Made by a program: the position numbers and the translations under genes. Shown here piece by piece: positions 26,545 through 57,865 of a DNA stretch of 64,000 nt. The notes beneath the pieces were generated by a model. That model did not search any database and was not told where the DNA came from. It saw only the letters and a program-made list of their open reading frames with translations. Position 1 is the stretch's first letter, and each line of letters begins with the position of its first letter. Origin of the DNA: Modicisalibacter tunisiensis (GTDB lineage: Bacteria; Pseudomonadota; Gammaproteobacteria; Pseudomonadales; Halomonadaceae); assembly GCF_020148005.1 (NCBI RefSeq), contig NZ_JAGXFD010000001.1, forward strand, positions 3,103,322 to 3,167,321. The letters run 5' to 3'.

Positions 26545-26687
26545 AGGGTTTGTCCGAAAAGTCGGCGAGCGAAGATCAGGCAAGGCGAAAATCAGCGAAA
26601 AAGCGGAGTTTACAGAGTGTAAATGAGCATTTTGAGCTGATTTTCAACGCCGCATGACCGAGCGCAGCCAGTTTTCAGACAAAGCCT
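26545..26687. repeat. Nested palindromic intergenic element, copy A
   Basis: 143 bp between ybeD and dacA, reaching the dacA stop codon. Outer arms AGGGTTTGTC and GACAAAGCCT pair with one mismatch; middle arms AAAATCAGC and GCTGATTTT pair; the innermost arms TTTACA and TGTAAA close a 3-nt loop. Copies B and C share the core and have different but still self-complementary arms. It may terminate or protect dacA mRNA. Confidence 0.85.
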
Positions 26688-27909
26688 AGAACAGGCCGGT
26701 CACGAACAGCACGATCGAGTCCCAGATGCGCTTGAAGAAGCCGCCCTGCTCCACGCTCTGCAGCGCCACCAGCGGCTGCTCGCGAATCACCTTGTCGCCC
26801 AGCTTGACCTGCAGCGACCCCAGCTGCTGGCCGGCCTGCACCGGTGCCTTGATGGTTTCCGGAATGTTCAGCTTGGCGGTCATCTCGTCGCGGCGTCCCT
26901 GCGGCACGGTCAGGTAGATGTCCTGAGTCACCCCCAGCTTGAGGTTATCGCGTGCCCCGCCCCAGATGCGCGGCTGGTTGAGCACGGCGCCACGCTGGTA
27001 GAGCTTGAAGGTGTCGAAGAAGCGGAAGCCGTAGCTGAGCAGCTTCTGCGACTCCTGGGCGCGGGCCTCGTCGGACTGGGTGCCCATCACCACGGAAATC
27101 AGCCGCATGTCGTCCTGCTTGGCGGACGACACCAGGCAGTAGCCGGCCTCCTCGGTGTGCCCGGTCTTGAGGCCGTCCACGGCCGGATCCCGCCACAGCA
27201 GGCGGTTGCGATTGGGCTGACGAATATCGTTGTAGGTGAAGTACTTCTTGGAATAGATCTGATAGTGATCCGGATAGTCCCGGATGATGTGACGGGCGAT
27301 CGTCGCCAGGTCGCGGGCGGACGAGTAGTGGTCCTCGTGGGGCAGCCCGGTGGCGTTGGCGAAATGGGTATTCTCGAGCCCCATGCGCTGCGCCTGCTGG
27401 TTCATCAGGTCGGCGAACGACGACTCGGAACCGGCGACGTATTCGGCCAGGGCCACGCTGGCATCGTTGCCCGACTGGATGACCACGCCGTGCAGCAGGT
27501 CATCGACCTTGACCCGGGTGCCCTCGCGCACGAACATCCGCGACCCGCCGGTGCGCCAGGCATGCTCGCTGATGGTGACCATGTCGTCGTCGGAGATGTT
27601 GCCGTCGTCGATCTCCTTCTCGACGATATAGGCGGTCATCATCTTGGTCAGGCTGGCCGGTGGCAGCCGCTCGTCGGCGTTGTGCTCGACCAGTACCTCG
27701 CCGCTGTTGGCATCGAGCAGGATCCACGACGACGCATCGAGACTCGGCGGCGTGGGGATCATCGGCTGCGGCAGGGACTTCTGCGGCAGCCGGGAGTCCG
27801 GCTGGGGCTGCTGCTCGGCCATCACGGGCTGGATTATCGCGATGCAGAACGCGGTAACGGCAACAGCCAGACCATGCCAGGGACGAGAGGGAAAAAGGGA
27901 CAGTCTCAT
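26686..27909 (-). CDS. dacA: D-alanyl-D-alanine carboxypeptidase (PBP5/6 type)
   Basis: 407 residues with a signal peptide (cleavage near VMA-EQQ, residue 31), catalytic motifs SLTK (86-89), SGN (146-148) and KTGH, a C-terminal beta domain and an amphipathic membrane anchor at the end (FKRIWDSIVLFVTGLF). It trims pentapeptides in the periplasm. It follows rlpA on the same strand after about 45 bp. Confidence 0.96.
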   Translation of the reverse strand: MRLSLFPSRPWHGLAVAVTAFCIAIIQPVMAEQQPQPDSRLPQKSLPQPMIPTPPSLDASSWILLDANSGEVLVEHNADERLPPASLTKMMTAYIVEKEIDDGNISDDDMVTISEHAWRTGGSRMFVREGTRVKVDDLLHGVVIQSGNDASVALAEYVAGSESSFADLMNQQAQRMGLENTHFANATGLPHEDHYSSARDLATIARHIIRDYPDHYQIYSKKYFTYNDIRQPNRNRLLWRDPAVDGLKTGHTEEAGYCLVSSAKQDDMRLISVVMGTQSDEARAQESQKLLSYGFRFFDTFKLYQRGAVLNQPRIWGGARDNLKLGVTQDIYLTVPQGRRDEMTAKLNIPETIKAPVQAGQQLGSLQVKLGDKVIREQPLVALQSVEQGGFFKRIWDSIVLFVTGLF

Positions 27910-27954
27910 GACGCGTGTTTCTCGTTGCTGGTTGTCAGGGAAATCCATCGATCA

Positions 27955-36934: not shown

Positions 36935-37879
36935 ATGCGCGACTTCTCCCAGCGCGACTACGACCGCCTGTTTCTCGTCGTGTATATCGGGGGGATGCTG
37001 CTGATCGCCAGCCACGCCCTCTGGCACTACCTGATGGGGCATTACGAGGCGATCCTGCTGCCGGCCCTGCTGACCCTGCTGCTGGCCGGCGCGCTGTTCG
37101 TGCGCCTGGCCAACCCCGGTCTGCACCGCATGGCGACCTATGCGGTCCTGATCAGCGGCTACCTGCTGACCGCCGCCGACCTCGCGGCTCATGACACTCA
37201 GGCCTGGCTCTGGCTCGGCGTCCCCCCGACCCTGACCTTCCTGCTGCTGCCGCTGGCACCGGCGACGCTGCTCAATCTGTCGCTGACCCCGGTCTGGCTG
37301 CTGCTGGCCGTCCCGATCCCGATGCTCTGGCAGGCCGGGCTCGCCTACCTGACCCTGATCGGCCTGTTGTCGCTCCCCGCCCGACTGGCGCTCCAGCGTC
37401 GCTTTCCGCGGCGGGACAGCGAACAGCCCGATGCCCAGTGCGATGCCCTGTCACACCATGCCCTGGCACTGCGCCTGACGGCCGAAGTGGAGCGTGGCCG
37501 CGCGCTCAAGCGCCCGCTGGCCGTGCTGGTGATCCACCTGCCCCAGCTGGAAATGGCCGAGGAGCAGTTCGGCAGCCATCTGCTGCAGGCCCTGCTCACT
37601 CGCGCCTGCGCCACCATCCAGGCCAACTGCCGCCAGCACGATCTGCTCGGCCGGGAGCGCGACTCGCTGTTCTGGCTGCTGCTGCCGGATACCGGCGAGG
37701 CCGGCGCCCTGATCGTTCGCGAGCGACTCCTGCAGGCCCTGAACCGTGACGTCTTCGCCGAAACCGGGGCCATTCAGGCACGCATCCGCAGCGAACACCT
37801 GCTGCCCGGCGACACCCTCGAACGCTTCGAACAGCGCCTGGCGGCGGCCGGCCTGAAACTGCTGGAGCCAAGTCCGTGA
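36935..37879 (+). CDS. Membrane protein with degenerate GGDEF domain
   Basis: 314 residues. Five or so hydrophobic helices (12-150) precede a GGDEF-like domain (180-300): PLAVLVIHLPQLEMAEEQFG, then HDLLGRERDSLFWLLLPDTGEAGA, where active cyclases have RxGGDEF. ERDSL (241-245) replaces GGDEF, so diguanylate cyclase activity is unlikely. Directly abuts the previous gene and overlaps the DedA-PAP2 gene by 4 nt, so the three form one operon. Confidence 0.7.
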   Translation: MRDFSQRDYDRLFLVVYIGGMLLIASHALWHYLMGHYEAILLPALLTLLLAGALFVRLANPGLHRMATYAVLISGYLLTAADLAAHDTQAWLWLGVPPTLTFLLLPLAPATLLNLSLTPVWLLLAVPIPMLWQAGLAYLTLIGLLSLPARLALQRRFPRRDSEQPDAQCDALSHHALALRLTAEVERGRALKRPLAVLVIHLPQLEMAEEQFGSHLLQALLTRACATIQANCRQHDLLGRERDSLFWLLLPDTGEAGALIVRERLLQALNRDVFAETGAIQARIRSEHLLPGDTLERFEQRLAAAGLKLLEPSP

Positions 37880-39282
37880 CCGCAACCGACTGGATCTCGA
37901 CGCTCACCCCGTCACCCGGCTGGCTGTACCTGATCTTCCTGCTCATCGCCCTGGTCGAGTCGCTGGCTGTGGTCGGCCTGCTGGTTCCCGGGGTGGTGCT
38001 GATCACCGCCGCCGCCTCCCTGGCGGGGCATCACGAGCTGTCCATCACCCTGGCCCTGCTGGCCGCCGCCGCGGGCGCCATCCTCGGCGACGGCATGAGC
38101 TTCCTGCTGGGCTACCGCTACCGCGAGCGCATTCCCACGCTCTGGCCATTCCGGCGCCACCCCGAATGGCTGGCCCGCGGCGCCCGCTTCTTCCAGCGCC
38201 ACGGCGTGCTCTCGGTGCTGATCGGGCGTTTCGTGGGGCCGGTACGTCCGGTGGTGCCGTTGATCGCGGGCATGATGCACATGCGACCCGCCACCTTCCT
38301 GTGGTCCAACATCGGCTCGGCGCTGCTCTGGGCCCCGGCCTATGTGCTGCCGGGCTATCTGCTGGGCCGCACCTGGCAGCAACTGCTGGCCCTGCCCCAC
38401 GACAGCCGACGCTGGCTGATCATGCTGGCGATGCTGGTGGTCGGCCTGCTGGTCACGTTCTCGCTGCTGCGCCGCCAGCTCGACCATGACGGCTGGACCT
38501 ATCGCCGGCTGGCCGCCCTCGCCGACCGCCACCCGGGCGGGCGCCGGCTGTGGGAGGCACTGGTGCCCGCGGGCACCGACAGCGGCGTGCCGCTGGCGTC
38601 GCTGCTGCTGCTGCTGACCAGCCTCGCCGCCCTCTCGGGGTGGACGCTGTGGGTGCTGCACCAGGACGGCCCGCTGCCCATGGACCAGCAGCTCCAGGCC
38701 CTGCTCGTCGATCTCCAGCATCCGCGGCTCACCCGACTGGCCGAGCTCATGGCCAGGCTCGGTGACACCTACGGCGTCATCGCCCTGGTCGTCCCCTGGC
38801 TGGCCTGGATGGCCCGGCGGAAACTGGTCGCCCTCGGACTGCACTGGCTCGGCGCCCTGGGCGGCATCGCCCTGGCCAACACGCTGTTCAAGCACCTGGC
38901 AGGGCGCGTACGCCCCGACATCCCCGACTACCTCGCCGGATCATTCTCCTACCCCAGCGCGCACACCTCGACCGCCGTGGTGCTCTACGGCCTGGCCGCC
39001 GCCTTCGTCGCCGACGGCCTGGCACCGCGCTACCGGGCGTCGGCCTACTGGCTGGCGGTGCTGATCTGCGTGCCCATGGCCCTGTCACGCCTGGTGATCG
39101 GCGTGCACTGGCTCAGCGACCTGGTGGGTGGCGCCCTGCTGGGGCTGGTGGTCTGTGCCCTCGTGCGCCTGAGCTACCACCGCTTCGCCGCCCGCCGGCC
39201 GCCACGCCCGCCGTGGCTGGCCCTGCTGCTGGCCTCCGCGGTCCTGCTGGCGGCGCGCCTCGCCTGGCTGCCGCACGCCTGA
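37876..39282 (+). CDS. DedA-PAP2 fusion membrane protein
   Basis: 468 residues. The N-terminal half is a DedA/SNARE-associated domain (LVPGVVLITAAA, GRFVGPVRPVVPLIAGMM, the lipid-scramblase or flippase family). The C-terminal half is a PAP2 phosphatase with the three active-site motifs KHLAGRVRP, PSAHT and RLVIGVHWLSD. Starts at GTG (37876) with GGAG nine bases upstream, overlapping the previous stop by 4 nt. A role in undecaprenyl phosphate or phosphatidic acid turnover at the inner membrane is inferred from the domains. Confidence 0.9.
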   Translation: MTATDWISTLTPSPGWLYLIFLLIALVESLAVVGLLVPGVVLITAAASLAGHHELSITLALLAAAAGAILGDGMSFLLGYRYRERIPTLWPFRRHPEWLARGARFFQRHGVLSVLIGRFVGPVRPVVPLIAGMMHMRPATFLWSNIGSALLWAPAYVLPGYLLGRTWQQLLALPHDSRRWLIMLAMLVVGLLVTFSLLRRQLDHDGWTYRRLAALADRHPGGRRLWEALVPAGTDSGVPLASLLLLLTSLAALSGWTLWVLHQDGPLPMDQQLQALLVDLQHPRLTRLAELMARLGDTYGVIALVVPWLAWMARRKLVALGLHWLGALGGIALANTLFKHLAGRVRPDIPDYLAGSFSYPSAHTSTAVVLYGLAAAFVADGLAPRYRASAYWLAVLICVPMALSRLVIGVHWLSDLVGGALLGLVVCALVRLSYHRFAARRPPRPPWLALLLASAVLLAARLAWLPHA

Positions 39283-39291
39283 GCCGTGCGC

Positions 39292-39450
39292 AGAGGGAGT
39301 TTACAAAAGTCACGAGCGACGGTCAGGCAAGGCGAAATCAGCCGCGAAAGCGGACTGGGCTTGCACACGAGTTCACGAGAGGGTAAATGAGCCTTTTGAA
39401 ACTGATTTCAACGCCGTATGGCCGAGCGCAGTCATTTGTAAGCACCCTCT
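39292..39450. repeat. Nested palindromic intergenic element, copy B
   Basis: 159 bp filling the gap between convergent genes. Outer arms 39292-39307 and 39435-39450 pair over AGAGGG and TTACAAA with three central mismatches; the core arms GAAATCAG and CTGATTTC pair as in copy A. The inner loop is longer than in the other copies. Outer arm sequence differs from copy A but remains self-complementary. Confidence 0.8.
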
Positions 39451-40073
39451 CAGCCCAGCGCCAGCCAGGCCCCCACCCCGACCATCAGGGTCCCGGCAAT
39501 GCGGTTGAGCAGGCGCACATTGCCACTGCGGCTGAGCAGATGGCTCGCCGTGCGCCCGCCGACGGCATAGAGCAGCAGACAGCACAGTTCGATCGACAGG
39601 ATCATGCCCACCAGCCAGCTCAGCTGCGGCGCCAGCGCCAGGCGGGCATCGAGAAACGGCGGCAGCAGGGCGATGAAGAAGGCCCAGCCCTTGGGGTTGG
39701 CCACGGCGGTGACGAACCCCTGGACGAACAGCTGCCCCCGCGAGACGTCGCGGGCGGCGCGCGGTTCATCGGGAATCGCCATGCGTCCACGCGAGCGCCA
39801 CATCTGCCAGCCCAGCCAGGCGAGATAGGCCCCGCCCAGCCACTTGAAGATCGCGAACAGCGCCGGCTGGCGCAGCATCAGCGTCGCCACCCCGCCACCG
39901 GCGGCGGCCGCCACCAGCCCCACCCCCAGCAGCTCGCCGATCATCATCCACAGGGCCCGGCGCACCCCCACCGTCATGCCCAGCACCATCGACAGCGTCA
40001 TGCACATGCCCGGGGTCAGCGACACCATGAAGAAAGTCGGGATAAAGACCGACAGCAGCGAAGGATTGATCAT
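39450..40073 (-). CDS. LysE/RhtB family amino-acid exporter
   Basis: 207 residues with six hydrophobic helices. The N-terminal LTPGMCMTLSMVLGMTVGVRRAL and the middle FVQGFVTAVANPKGWAFFIALLPPFLD are typical of the family, which exports amino acids or homoserine lactones. Substrate not determinable. Followed by copy B of the palindromic element. Confidence 0.88.
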   Translation of the reverse strand: MINPSLLSVFIPTFFMVSLTPGMCMTLSMVLGMTVGVRRALWMMIGELLGVGLVAAAAGGGVATLMLRQPALFAIFKWLGGAYLAWLGWQMWRSRGRMAIPDEPRAARDVSRGQLFVQGFVTAVANPKGWAFFIALLPPFLDARLALAPQLSWLVGMILSIELCCLLLYAVGGRTASHLLSRSGNVRLLNRIAGTLMVGVGAWLALG

Positions 40074-54028: not shown

Positions 54029-55621
<1,593 letters not shown>

Positions 55622-55624
55622 GGC

Positions 55625-55752
55625 GCGGAAAACGCCGAGTCTCGGCCATGCGTCGTTGAAAGTCGGCTCAAGATGCTCATTTGCAACAGCAAACTCCGCT
55701 CTTTCGCCGACTTTCGCCTAGCCTGGCCGTCGCTCAGCTGTTTTCTTGGGCT
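55625..55752. repeat. Nested palindromic intergenic element, copy C (reverse orientation)
   Basis: About 128 bp after purH, matching copy A when read on the minus strand. Middle arms GAAAGTCGGC-type and GCCGACTTTC replace AAAATCAGC and GCTGATTTT of copy A with paired changes on both sides; the inner TTTGC and GCAAA pair likewise. Outer arms are a third sequence and pair imperfectly. Confidence 0.8.
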
Positions 55753-55761
55753 TTTTAAACG

Positions 55762-55839: not shown

Positions 55840-57297
55840 TCAGCCCAGGTCGATGCACAGGTACTTGGTCTCCAGGAACTCGTCGAGCCCCTGATGACCG
55901 CCCTCGCGACCCAGGCCGGACTCCTTGACCCCGCCGAACGGCGCGGCGGGGTTGGAGATCAGCCCGGTGTTGACGCCGACGATGCCGTATTCCAGCGCCT
56001 CGCCGACCCGCCATACCTGACTCAGGTCCCGCGAATAGAAGTAGGCGGCCAGACCGAACGGGGTATCGTTGGCCATGGCCACGGCGTCTTCCTCGTCGTC
56101 GAAGGGGAACACCGCCGCCAGCGGACCGAAGGTTTCCTCGGAGGCGACCAGCATGTCGCTGCTGGCCTGATTGACCAGCGTCGGGGTGAAGAAGTTGCCG
56201 CCCAGCGGATGGGGATGGCCGCCCAGCAGCAGCTCGGCGCCCTTGTCGACGGCATCACGGATATGCCGGTTGACCTTCTCGACCGCATTCTGGTCGATCA
56301 ACGGCCCGATGTTGACCCCGTCCTTGGTGCCGTCACCGACATGCAGCTCGCTGTTCATGGCCGCGGCCAGCTTCTCGCAGAAGGCGTTGACCACGCTCGA
56401 CTGCACCAGGAAGCGGTTGACGCACACGCAGGTCTGGCCGCCGTTGCGGAACTTGGAGGCCATGGCCCCTTCCACGGCGGCGTCCAGGTCGGCGTCCTCG
56501 AAGACCAGGAACGGCGCGTTGCCGCCCAGTTCCAGGGAAATCTTCTGGATGTGCTGCGAGGCCTGCGCCATCAGCTTGCGGCCCACTTCGGTGGAACCGG
56601 TGAAGGTGATCTTGCGCACCAGCGGCGACTCGGTCAGCGCACCGGCGATCTCGCTGGCCTGACCGGAAACCACGTTGAACACGCCGCGCGGCACGCCCGC
56701 GCGCTCGGCCAGCAGCGCCAGCGCGGTGGCCGAGAACGGCGTCTGGCTGGCGGGCTTGACCACCGTGGTACAACCGGCGGCCAGTGCCGCGCCGACCTTG
56801 CGGGTAATCATCGCCGCCGGGAAGTTCCAGGGGGTGATGGCGCCCACCACACCCACCGGCTGCTTGGTCACCAGGATGCGCTGATTGGACTTGGCGGCGG
56901 GTACCGTCTCCCCGTAGATCCGGCGCGCCTCCTCGGCGAACCAGCGCAGGAAGCTGGCCGCATAGACGATCTCGCCCGCCGCCTCCTTGAGCGGCTTGCC
57001 CTGCTCGAGGGTCATGATGGCGGCGAGCTCGTCCTGATGCTCGAGCATCAGGTCGTACCATTTCATCAGAATGTCGGCCCGCTCCTGGGCGGTGTGCGCC
57101 CGCCAGCTCGGCAGCGCCGCATCGGCGGCCTCGATGGCGCGCTGCGTCTCGGCGCGCCCCATGCGCGGCATCCTGCCGATGGTCTCGCCCGTCGCCGGAT
57201 TGTCGACCTCGATCTGTTCGCCGCTGTCGGCGGCGACCCAGCCGCCGTCGATATAGGCGAAGGGACGAAACAGCGAACTGTCCTGCAACGACTCCAT
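55840..57297 (-). CDS. gabD: NAD(P)-dependent succinate-semialdehyde dehydrogenase
   Basis: 485 residues (E. coli GabD 482). Aldehyde dehydrogenase with TPWNFPAAMITRK, FTGSTEVGRKL, catalytic Glu in LELGGNAPF and Cys in GGQTCVCVNR. GabD-like features throughout, but no gabT is adjacent, so another semialdehyde substrate is possible. ATG at 57295-57297 with AAGGAG upstream. Confidence 0.88.
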   Translation of the reverse strand: MESLQDSSLFRPFAYIDGGWVAADSGEQIEVDNPATGETIGRMPRMGRAETQRAIEAADAALPSWRAHTAQERADILMKWYDLMLEHQDELAAIMTLEQGKPLKEAAGEIVYAASFLRWFAEEARRIYGETVPAAKSNQRILVTKQPVGVVGAITPWNFPAAMITRKVGAALAAGCTTVVKPASQTPFSATALALLAERAGVPRGVFNVVSGQASEIAGALTESPLVRKITFTGSTEVGRKLMAQASQHIQKISLELGGNAPFLVFEDADLDAAVEGAMASKFRNGGQTCVCVNRFLVQSSVVNAFCEKLAAAMNSELHVGDGTKDGVNIGPLIDQNAVEKVNRHIRDAVDKGAELLLGGHPHPLGGNFFTPTLVNQASSDMLVASEETFGPLAAVFPFDDEEDAVAMANDTPFGLAAYFYSRDLSQVWRVGEALEYGIVGVNTGLISNPAAPFGGVKESGLGREGGHQGLDEFLETKYLCIDLG

Positions 57298-57307
57298 GAT
57301 GCTCTCC

Positions 57308-57865
57308 TTATCCTTGCGACGACCGGGAAGCGATCGCCGATGACTGCCGCCCGGCCGTGTCGCCGGGCATGACGTTGACATGGGCACTGGCGGGGGGCGC
57401 CGGTGCGGTCGCGAGCAGCCCGGAGAGCAGCGTCACCACCGCCGCCAGGCCGATGGCCACCCAGCAGAAGAGCCGCCCCCTGTAGCGCTCGGGGGAGCGA
57501 CGAATCTGATACAGGCCGAACAGGGCGAACAGGACCGCGACGGCGCCGAACAGCGGCGCCAGCACATCGAAAAACAGGCCCAGCAGGGCCACCACCACGG
57601 CGGCGATGGCGGCATTGGCATGACGGGGGGTCTCGGCGCCGGAACGGGCCGCCGGGGGGCACGGCCGGGCTCGGCGCTGGGGTTCGGGACGGTTGAGGAC
57701 CTGGCGCGCACGCTGGCCCCGGGGATCGAAACGCACGGCAGTGCCCGGGCCGGGAAGTCCGCGTCCGCGCCAGTCCGCCAGGCCGAAGTCATAACGCTGG
57801 CCATCCGGCGTCTCGATGGTCCCTTCCTGTGCTGCATCGTCGAACGCGATGATCTCGCCGTCCAA
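57308..57865 (-). CDS. Membrane protein with N-terminal cold-shock-like domain
   Basis: 185 residues. The first 58 (GEIIAFDDAAQEGTIETPDG, GTAVRFDPRG) look like a cold-shock/OB fold; after a Pro/Arg-rich linker come three hydrophobic helices (about 85-160) and a short tail. Start is TTG at 57863-57865 with GGGAG upstream. It sits between srkA and the dehydrogenase gene. Nucleic-acid binding is inferred from fold resemblance only. Confidence 0.65.
   Translation of the reverse strand: MDGEIIAFDDAAQEGTIETPDGQRYDFGLADWRGRGLPGPGTAVRFDPRGQRARQVLNRPEPQRRARPCPPAARSGAETPRHANAAIAAVVVALLGLFFDVLAPLFGAVAVLFALFGLYQIRRSPERYRGRLFCWVAIGLAAVVTLLSGLLATAPAPPASAHVNVMPGDTAGRQSSAIASRSSQG

Follow-up and report, generated by a model that had tools for sequence, protein, structure and literature searches.

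The window analysed here, a stretch of 64,000 nucleotides (3103322-3167321 of contig NZ_JAGXFD010000001.1, in a genome of 3.55 Mb), contains three palindromic sequences behind the 3' ends of genes, and they raise the question whether they belong together, what kind of element they are, and why they stand where they do. A first-pass annotation had taken them for copies of one family of nested palindromes under selection for structure, comparable to REP/BIME elements or to terminators and mRNA stabilisers derived from MITEs, and possibly special to the clade. The three copies, A, B and C (Table 1), are found at the places it gave, and each folds on itself: on the given strand the fold energies lie at z -5.6 (A), -2.7 (B) and -5.3 (C) relative to shuffled sequences, with 0/200, 3/200 and 0/200 shuffles folding as well, while on the opposite strand A and C fold equally well (z -6.1 and -5.9) and B does not (z +0.6). 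By Pfam assignments and distances, all three also follow gene 3' ends (dacA; the VTT/PAP2 and LysE genes; purH), the TAG stop of dacA (26686-26688) sitting within a CTAG (26686-26689) at the end of copy A. BLAST alignments of A reach 82% with C (96 columns) and 74% with B (136 columns). Both of the paired changes described between A and C are present in the sequence, AAAATCAGC/GCTGATTTT becoming GAAAGTCGGC/GCCGACTTTC and TTTACA/TGTAAA becoming TTTGC/GCAAA, and the outer arms of B and C are indeed unlike those of A, yet self-complementary.

Table 1. The three elements and the adjoining genes (positions within the window)
Feature	Position	Strand	Remarks
Copy A	26546..26686	+	full element, terminal repeats GGGTTTGTCCGAAAA / TTTTCAGACAAAGCC; core 26566-26667
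Copy B	39293..39451	+	different outer arms (GAGGGAGTTTACAAAA / TTTGTAAGCACCCTC), additional core helices; core 39313-39431
Copy C	55620..55757	-	terminal repeats not recognisable; core 55636-55736
dacA, D-alanyl-D-alanine carboxypeptidase	26686..27948	-	Pfam Peptidase_S11 and PBP5_C, ORF list; reads into copy A
VTT(DedA)/PAP2 gene	37876..39282	+	Pfam; ends ahead of copy B
LysE-type translocator gene	39450..40073	-	Pfam; stop at right end of copy B, 18 nt from core
purH (AICARFT/IMPCHase)	54029..55621	+	Pfam; TAG stop at end of copy C, 14 nt from core
Aldehyde dehydrogenase gene	55840-57387	-	ends on other side of copy C

A covariance model built from 18 copies of the window's own genome (R1; 102 positions, 33 pairs, with A and C among its rows and B outside them) scores A at 116.2, C at 101.9 and B at 69.4 bits, the next match in the window reaching 15 bits. 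Searching the whole genome with such a model, as had been suggested, brings up 38 copies at E <= 2e-5 and two further at E near 0.03; BLAST with copy A finds 29 places in the genome and misses copy C. Set in a common orientation, the copies all contain the core, CAAGGC ... GGAGTTTACnnnGTAAATGAGC ... AACGC, with free stem sequences and variable outer arms. None of 4227 Rfam models reached its gathering score in the window, and the elements in five loci had no Rfam match at E<=1. The three palindromes are confirmed as members of a dispersed structured family.

The stems of this family change in pairs. In the 18 own copies, 21 of the 33 stem pairs are altered on both sides with pairing kept, and 96.1% of the cells are paired, against 84.6% after shuffling and 28-41% with one side slid. 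A larger alignment (A2) comprises 102 distinct copies on 93 named contigs; it is biased towards the structure of R1, to which it was fitted, and its apical letters were fixed by the source pattern. Here 30 of the 33 pairs are altered on both sides and 91.8% of the cells are paired (70.9% shuffled, 32-44% slid). For either alignment 0 of 500 shuffles had as many altered pairs, with the caveat of the counting tool that kindred sequences may beat its shuffles even without structure. I collected 134 copies from four genomes of the genus (38/38 from the own genome, and the best-scoring 40 of 58, 24 of 29 and 32 of 46 from the others), and classed those with one of five repeat patterns in the left flank, one mismatch allowed, as repeat-bearing and those without as worn. 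Among the distinct matches in these genomes, 22 of the 33 pairs are altered on both sides in the 59 with terminal repeats, and 29 in the 78 worn ones. The apical stem, too, shows paired changes in single copies (e.g. GTGGAC/GTCCAT). Twelve comparisons of related copies, one of them of paralogues and several not independent, contain 27 pairs doubly changed and still paired, 14 changed on one side and still paired, and 21 broken.

An origin as MITEs, one of the options of the first-pass annotation, is supported by the terminal-repeat pattern in the left flank of 59 of the 134 copies and by the orthologous sites of copy A (tested alone), which is absent behind dacA in 8/8 relatives; in their dacA loci R1 finds no copy there and one other match, weak, elsewhere (E 0.07). 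By a crude pattern, TA is located near both ends in 36 of the 59 repeat-bearing copies and CTAG in 13. Where a repeat-bearing copy has a right-hand stop at 17-18 nt, this stop is TAG in 11 of 16 cases, often within CTAG, so that a CTAG target would account for part of the position at 3' ends. Near 823.7 kb of the own contig C1 (~1470-1510 of locus L412), terminal repeats stand face to face without a core, a solo remnant. A parental insertion sequence was found neither in the own genome, where the terminal-repeat pattern has 18 matches, mostly inside elements, nor in six plasmid records, nor in 423 loci, where six facing repeat pairs appear by eye to be chance or separate elements; a non-exhaustive search of the same three sources found no transposase with these ends.

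The layout of the elements I recognised as that of ERIC. When folded, the ERIC consensus (127 bp, from the available part of PMC2759123) has AAGGC, GGAG-CTTAC-ATAA-GTAAG-TGA and AACGCA at equivalent hairpin points, the motifs common to both at matching points being AAGGC, GGAG-YTTAC-loop-GTAAR-TGA and AACGC. From A2 I derived a covariance model (R2), with no enterobacterium or Vibrio record among its training loci, and a sequence-only model (R3). As a whole-genome run of R2 on six ERIC-rich genomes gave 3 matches and missed the ERICs (best 150 candidates), 31 ERIC loci were searched directly, 30 from the order of Vibrio mexicanus, in which the ERIC consensus matched 20 of 148 genomes, and one from E. 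coli. With default filters, R2 has 10 matches in 99 kb of these loci, 10/10 at ERICs (E 1e-9 to 4e-4). With filters off, it matches 22 of the 31 loci at E<1e-3, in every case at the place and on the strand of the ERIC, and 8 more at the ERIC with E 0.003-0.74, amid chance matches (of the 56 matches up to E=10, 26 fall outside the ERICs, the strongest with E 0.0015); including the weak matches 30 of the 31 loci are found, the one missed (L260) holding half an ERIC only. R3 with default filters has 0 matches at E <= 10 in the ERIC loci, so that what the two have in common is a folded core in which a few letters are fixed. R1, from the own genome alone, matches the E. coli ERIC at E 0.64 only, and BLAST with the ERIC consensus gives no match in the own genome at 1e-5; its lack of matches in 276 class genomes is, by the tool's own caveat, uninformative without a positive genome. 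This family and ERIC very probably have their folded core in common, for which common descent is the simplest reading and convergence the alternative.

The elements also resemble ERIC (also known as IRU or RU-1) in hairpin length, in intergenic location and in having TA at the ends (for ERIC, according to the available text of PMC2229807). They differ in the end sequences, TATACCC/GGGTATA in the ERIC consensus (PMC2759123, available part) and CTAGG...TGTCYGAAAA or others here, and in their hosts, named as Enterobacteriaceae and Vibrionaceae for ERIC in the accessible portion of PMC10969869 and mainly other families here. ERIC proper, as defined by DNA similarity and TATACCC/GGGTATA ends, does not include them. 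Kinship with REP/BIME is not borne out, the closest relative found being ERIC; both REP/BIME and these elements are intergenic palindromes behind genes, but REPs measure 20-40 bp (PMC3733652, as far as its available text goes), compared with ~130-160 bp and nested stems here. The Correia/NEMIS and RUP elements, MITEs of Neisseria and pneumococcus compared here by description only, are likewise short, with terminal inverted repeats, TA ends and hairpin transcripts (available part of PMC2229807); for RUP an IS630-type transposase has been proposed, whereas here none was found. REP/RAYT systems, integron attC sites, group II introns and a short peptide behind GGAG were considered and set aside on general grounds.

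The family is not special to its clade, as had been thought possible. With E <= 0.001 as the threshold, R1 has matches in 60 of 81 genomes of the family (none in 4 of 24 genera, as far as their genomes were drawn), and R2 matches 82 of 255 class genomes and 16 of 148 in the order of an Alistipes MAG, with 46 matches in that MAG and 36 in Pseudomonas nitroreducens. An exact pattern, GGAGTTTACN{2,8}GTAAATGAGCA, matched at least 119 stretches, and the matches listed include Pseudomonas, Stutzerimonas, Halomonas, Salinicola, Chromohalobacter, Marinospirillum, Methylophaga and Vibrio, as well as MAGs of Nitrosomonadales, Mariprofundales and Bacteroidota (Alistipes, Tidjanibacter, Tannerella), single MAG contigs being possibly misbinned. 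Twelve pattern matches were folded, and 12/12 are hairpins with an identical apex and differing stems. Relatives are present on Pseudomonas and Halomonas plasmids, at sites without annotated feature, and copy A has no match in phages. In the literature searched, I found no account of the family outside the hosts of ERIC, which the available part of PMC2267715 lists in E. coli, Y. pestis and V. cholerae, along with unnamed Pseudomonas stem-loop families known here by description only; the 10-mer GTAAATGAGC was checked in one paper, on plasmid iterons (PMC10457243, available portion). Across genera, extra helices (GATCGGACTCGCGCCCGAGC or GACCGGGCTGGCGCTCCAGCC) are observed at one stem point, like swapped modules (in the cores of L006, L012, L022, L052, L149 and L153), and positions 39340-39385 in copy B are a site of extra stem helices of this kind. 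The Pseudomonas copies L049, L053, L080 and L083 have larger inserts within the stem, composed of several more hairpins. A BLAST match of copy A in NZ_CP021660.1 (117010-117075), an aphid-symbiont plasmid of Candidatus Fukatsuia symbiotica, may be an intermediate linking this family with ERIC.

With the core read as GGAGTTTAC...GTAAATGAGC and genes called by a simple codon score, I counted for each of the 134 copies the genes that read towards the element and stop at most 40 nt to the right or 45 nt to the left of the core. The worn copies (75) have such a stop on the right in 58 cases, on the left in 4, on both sides in 1 and on neither in 14 (right:left per genome 16:2, 14:0, 12:1 and 16:1), the repeat-bearing copies (59) on the right in 23, on the left in 9, on both sides in 4 and on neither in 31 (10:3, 4:5, 1:1 and 8:0, the skew being absent in two of the four genomes). 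The two sets differ by Fisher's test (right versus left, p 0.009; right versus not right, p 8e-6), and the association with stop codons that three copies had indicated is, for the worn ones, a strong link to gene 3' ends. The cores of worn copies have a G+C content of 0.53, against 0.48 in repeat-bearing ones, and their outer arms have retained pairing (mean -14.2 kcal/mol, compared to -6.6 with arms swapped between copies). In other records, counting right/left stops within 60 nt, I found 25/14 for 58 named proteobacterial elements and 7/2 for 16 others (these 58 and 16 being 74 of the 103 pattern matches collected for A2), 6/6 for 14 elements of the Pseudomonas genome, 8/0 for 13 of the Alistipes MAG, 16/8 for the 29 best family loci and 8/7 for 23 ERIC loci; the orientation bias is not universal.

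The genes to the right of the own worn copies (n=21) include ten named by NCBIfam: homoserine dehydrogenase, rho, guaB, era, prfB, two succinate-semialdehyde-dehydrogenase-like genes, efp, sufB and lysS. Behind rho a copy is present in 4/4 sampled genomes of the genus, in three as the same element with paired changes, and in the fourth with an identical gene-side arm and different stems and far arm. At rho (L350 compared with L289/L362/L380) and at guaB (L353/L409 compared with L291/L396), stems and far arm are exchanged whole with the position fixed, as by conversion between copies. For 16 worn and 11 repeat-bearing own copies, homologues (>=45% identity) of the gene on the right were sought beside 141 elements, located in 139 loci of records other than the four fetched genomes (92 from the 103 matches of the A2 collection, 13 of 36 from Pseudomonas, 12 of 46 from the Alistipes MAG and 24 of 29 family loci). 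Eight gene-locus pairs resulted, and in 6 of them the gene end adjoins the element: in the same orientation for rho of Salinicola salarius, guaB of Pseudomonas nitroreducens, sufB of Billgrantia ethanolica, lysS of a Nitrosomonadales MAG and, in a family genome, the right-hand gene of the repeat-bearing own copy L284, and in the opposite orientation for guaB of Vreelandella aquamarina. For the worn set 5 were seen, against a roughly expected ~0.6 (141 x 16 / 3500), an excess that close relatives inflate. Judging by their names, Salinicola, Billgrantia and Vreelandella are relatives; the Salinicola rho copy has the same arms as the Halomonas one. Pseudomonas and Nitrosomonadales are outside the family, and at guaB of Pseudomonas and lysS of the MAG the element may have arrived independently. 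As worn copies are located mostly in one orientation behind stop codons, often of housekeeping genes, the pattern suggests that cells have put them to use.

Which strand folds bears on what this use could be. With the conserved apical G-U pair excluded, G-U exceeds A-C on the core strand in four alignments (18:11, 103:63 in the 3063 cells of A2, 84:34 and 90:48), and also in the 43 worn copies with both flanking genes on the other strand (40:22, p 0.03), a mild excess that perhaps arises partly from alignment to a core-strand model. The conserved pair itself is G-U on the core strand in 54/59 and 68/76 cells, with G-T also in the ERIC consensus, and the internal loops are purine-rich on this strand. 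The mRNA of the right-hand gene is the opposite strand. Since G-U pairs are commoner on the strand that this mRNA does not carry, it is doubtful that mRNA structure as such is under selection; the excess argues against simple selection for a hairpin in the mRNA and in favour of the core strand having a role, at any rate while the element is mobile.

The explanation that I rank first, and to which as a whole I would give an even chance, is that the elements are nested-palindrome MITEs of a superfamily including ERIC, whose worn copies serve as 3'-end hairpins for mRNA processing or stability. A conserved, strand-polar folded core (CAAGGC ... GGAG-TTTAC-loop-GTAAA-TGAGC ... AACGC, with fixed, purine-rich internal loops and free stems) would be carried by changing terminal repeats, and young copies would insert at CTAG/TA. 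Copies landing behind a stop codon in one orientation would be retained after the loss of recognisable terminal repeats, their stems still co-varying; they would form part of the 3' end of the upstream gene's transcript, where the long hairpin could govern how the mRNA is processed or how stable it is, an effect reported for ERIC in Yersinia. Of these points, the core in common with ERIC, the lack of copy A in relatives, the covariation, the orientation bias and the recurrence at the same housekeeping genes are computational findings, and the place in the transcript is the likely but inferred part. The transcribed hairpin is placed first because of position, orientation and the effect of Yersinia ERIC on mRNA, which is said to depend crucially on orientation (PMC2229807, available part), and it is put no higher because of the strand evidence. 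Counted against this explanation are the core-strand G-U excess, the inverted guaB copy in Vreelandella, the 14 of 75 worn copies without a stop on either side, the 21 broken pairs beside 27 doubly changed ones, and the absence of skew in the Pseudomonas genome (6/6), in the ERIC loci (8/7) and, for repeat-bearing copies, in two of the four genomes (4:5 and 1:1).

Alternatively, the elements may be purely parasitic MITEs, their paired changes caused by template-switch palindrome correction and the worn copies being harmlessly placed remnants, which I consider rather unlikely. The paired changes, which exceed both controls as selection on structure would have it, are also readable as such correction, and this part of the original claim is weakened by the G-U preference for the strand opposite to the mRNA. 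One-sided states are rare both ways (103 G-U and 63 A-C in the 3063 cells of A2), the G-U count being lower than I would expect of a working RNA, and A and C fold equally well on both strands. However, a skew of 58:4 is unexpected for neutral remnants, the same genes recur in distant records, and in worn copies the unpaired sites, which are beyond palindrome correction, are better conserved than the paired ones (mean 0.82 vs. 0.75), the letters conserved at >=90% belonging mostly to internal loops and closing pairs (AGGC, CG-AGU, GU-AUGAG, AAC).

It is less probable still that the function resides on the core strand, as a single-stranded DNA hairpin, a cruciform or an antisense RNA bound by a widespread protein, perhaps the mover of the element. 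The G-U excess in the four alignments and between other-strand genes, the conserved G-U pair with its counterpart in ERIC and the purine-rich loops would all be accounted for, but the excess is mild and perhaps in part an alignment effect, and a candidate protein or promoter was not found.

The terminator role of the first-pass annotation, as intrinsic terminators spread by a transposon, is improbable: the copies do stand directly behind stop codons, 95% of the 59 repeat-bearing copies have TTTT in the arm (20 nt) lying 3' in the mRNA (control 100 nt away, 5-7%), and near copy C a scan gives 2 sites (0.5 expected), one a terminator-like hairpin with TTTTT over its far arm on the purH strand (55732-55751, +), but the idea misfits most worn copies because just 16% of the 75 have TTTT, a simple scan around copy A shows no terminator-like site, and 44 of the 75 worn copies lie between same-direction genes.

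ERIC repeats have long been in use for strain typing. A review reports, in its available part, no insertion sequence matched to their ends (PMC2229807). It is conceivable, though I would put it somewhat below an even chance, that ERIC is one small branch of an ancient superfamily of folded mobile elements across Pseudomonadota and Bacteroidota, with a purine-rich loop motif on the core strand that would be read by a widespread factor, and that members have repeatedly been domesticated in one orientation as 3'-end elements of housekeeping genes (rho, guaB, prfB, lysS, sufB, efp, era). A superfamily defined by its folded core and far wider in host range provides a consensus for searching, and the oriented copies that follow rho, guaB, prfB-lysS and sufB make it directly testable whether MITE hairpins become working 3' ends.
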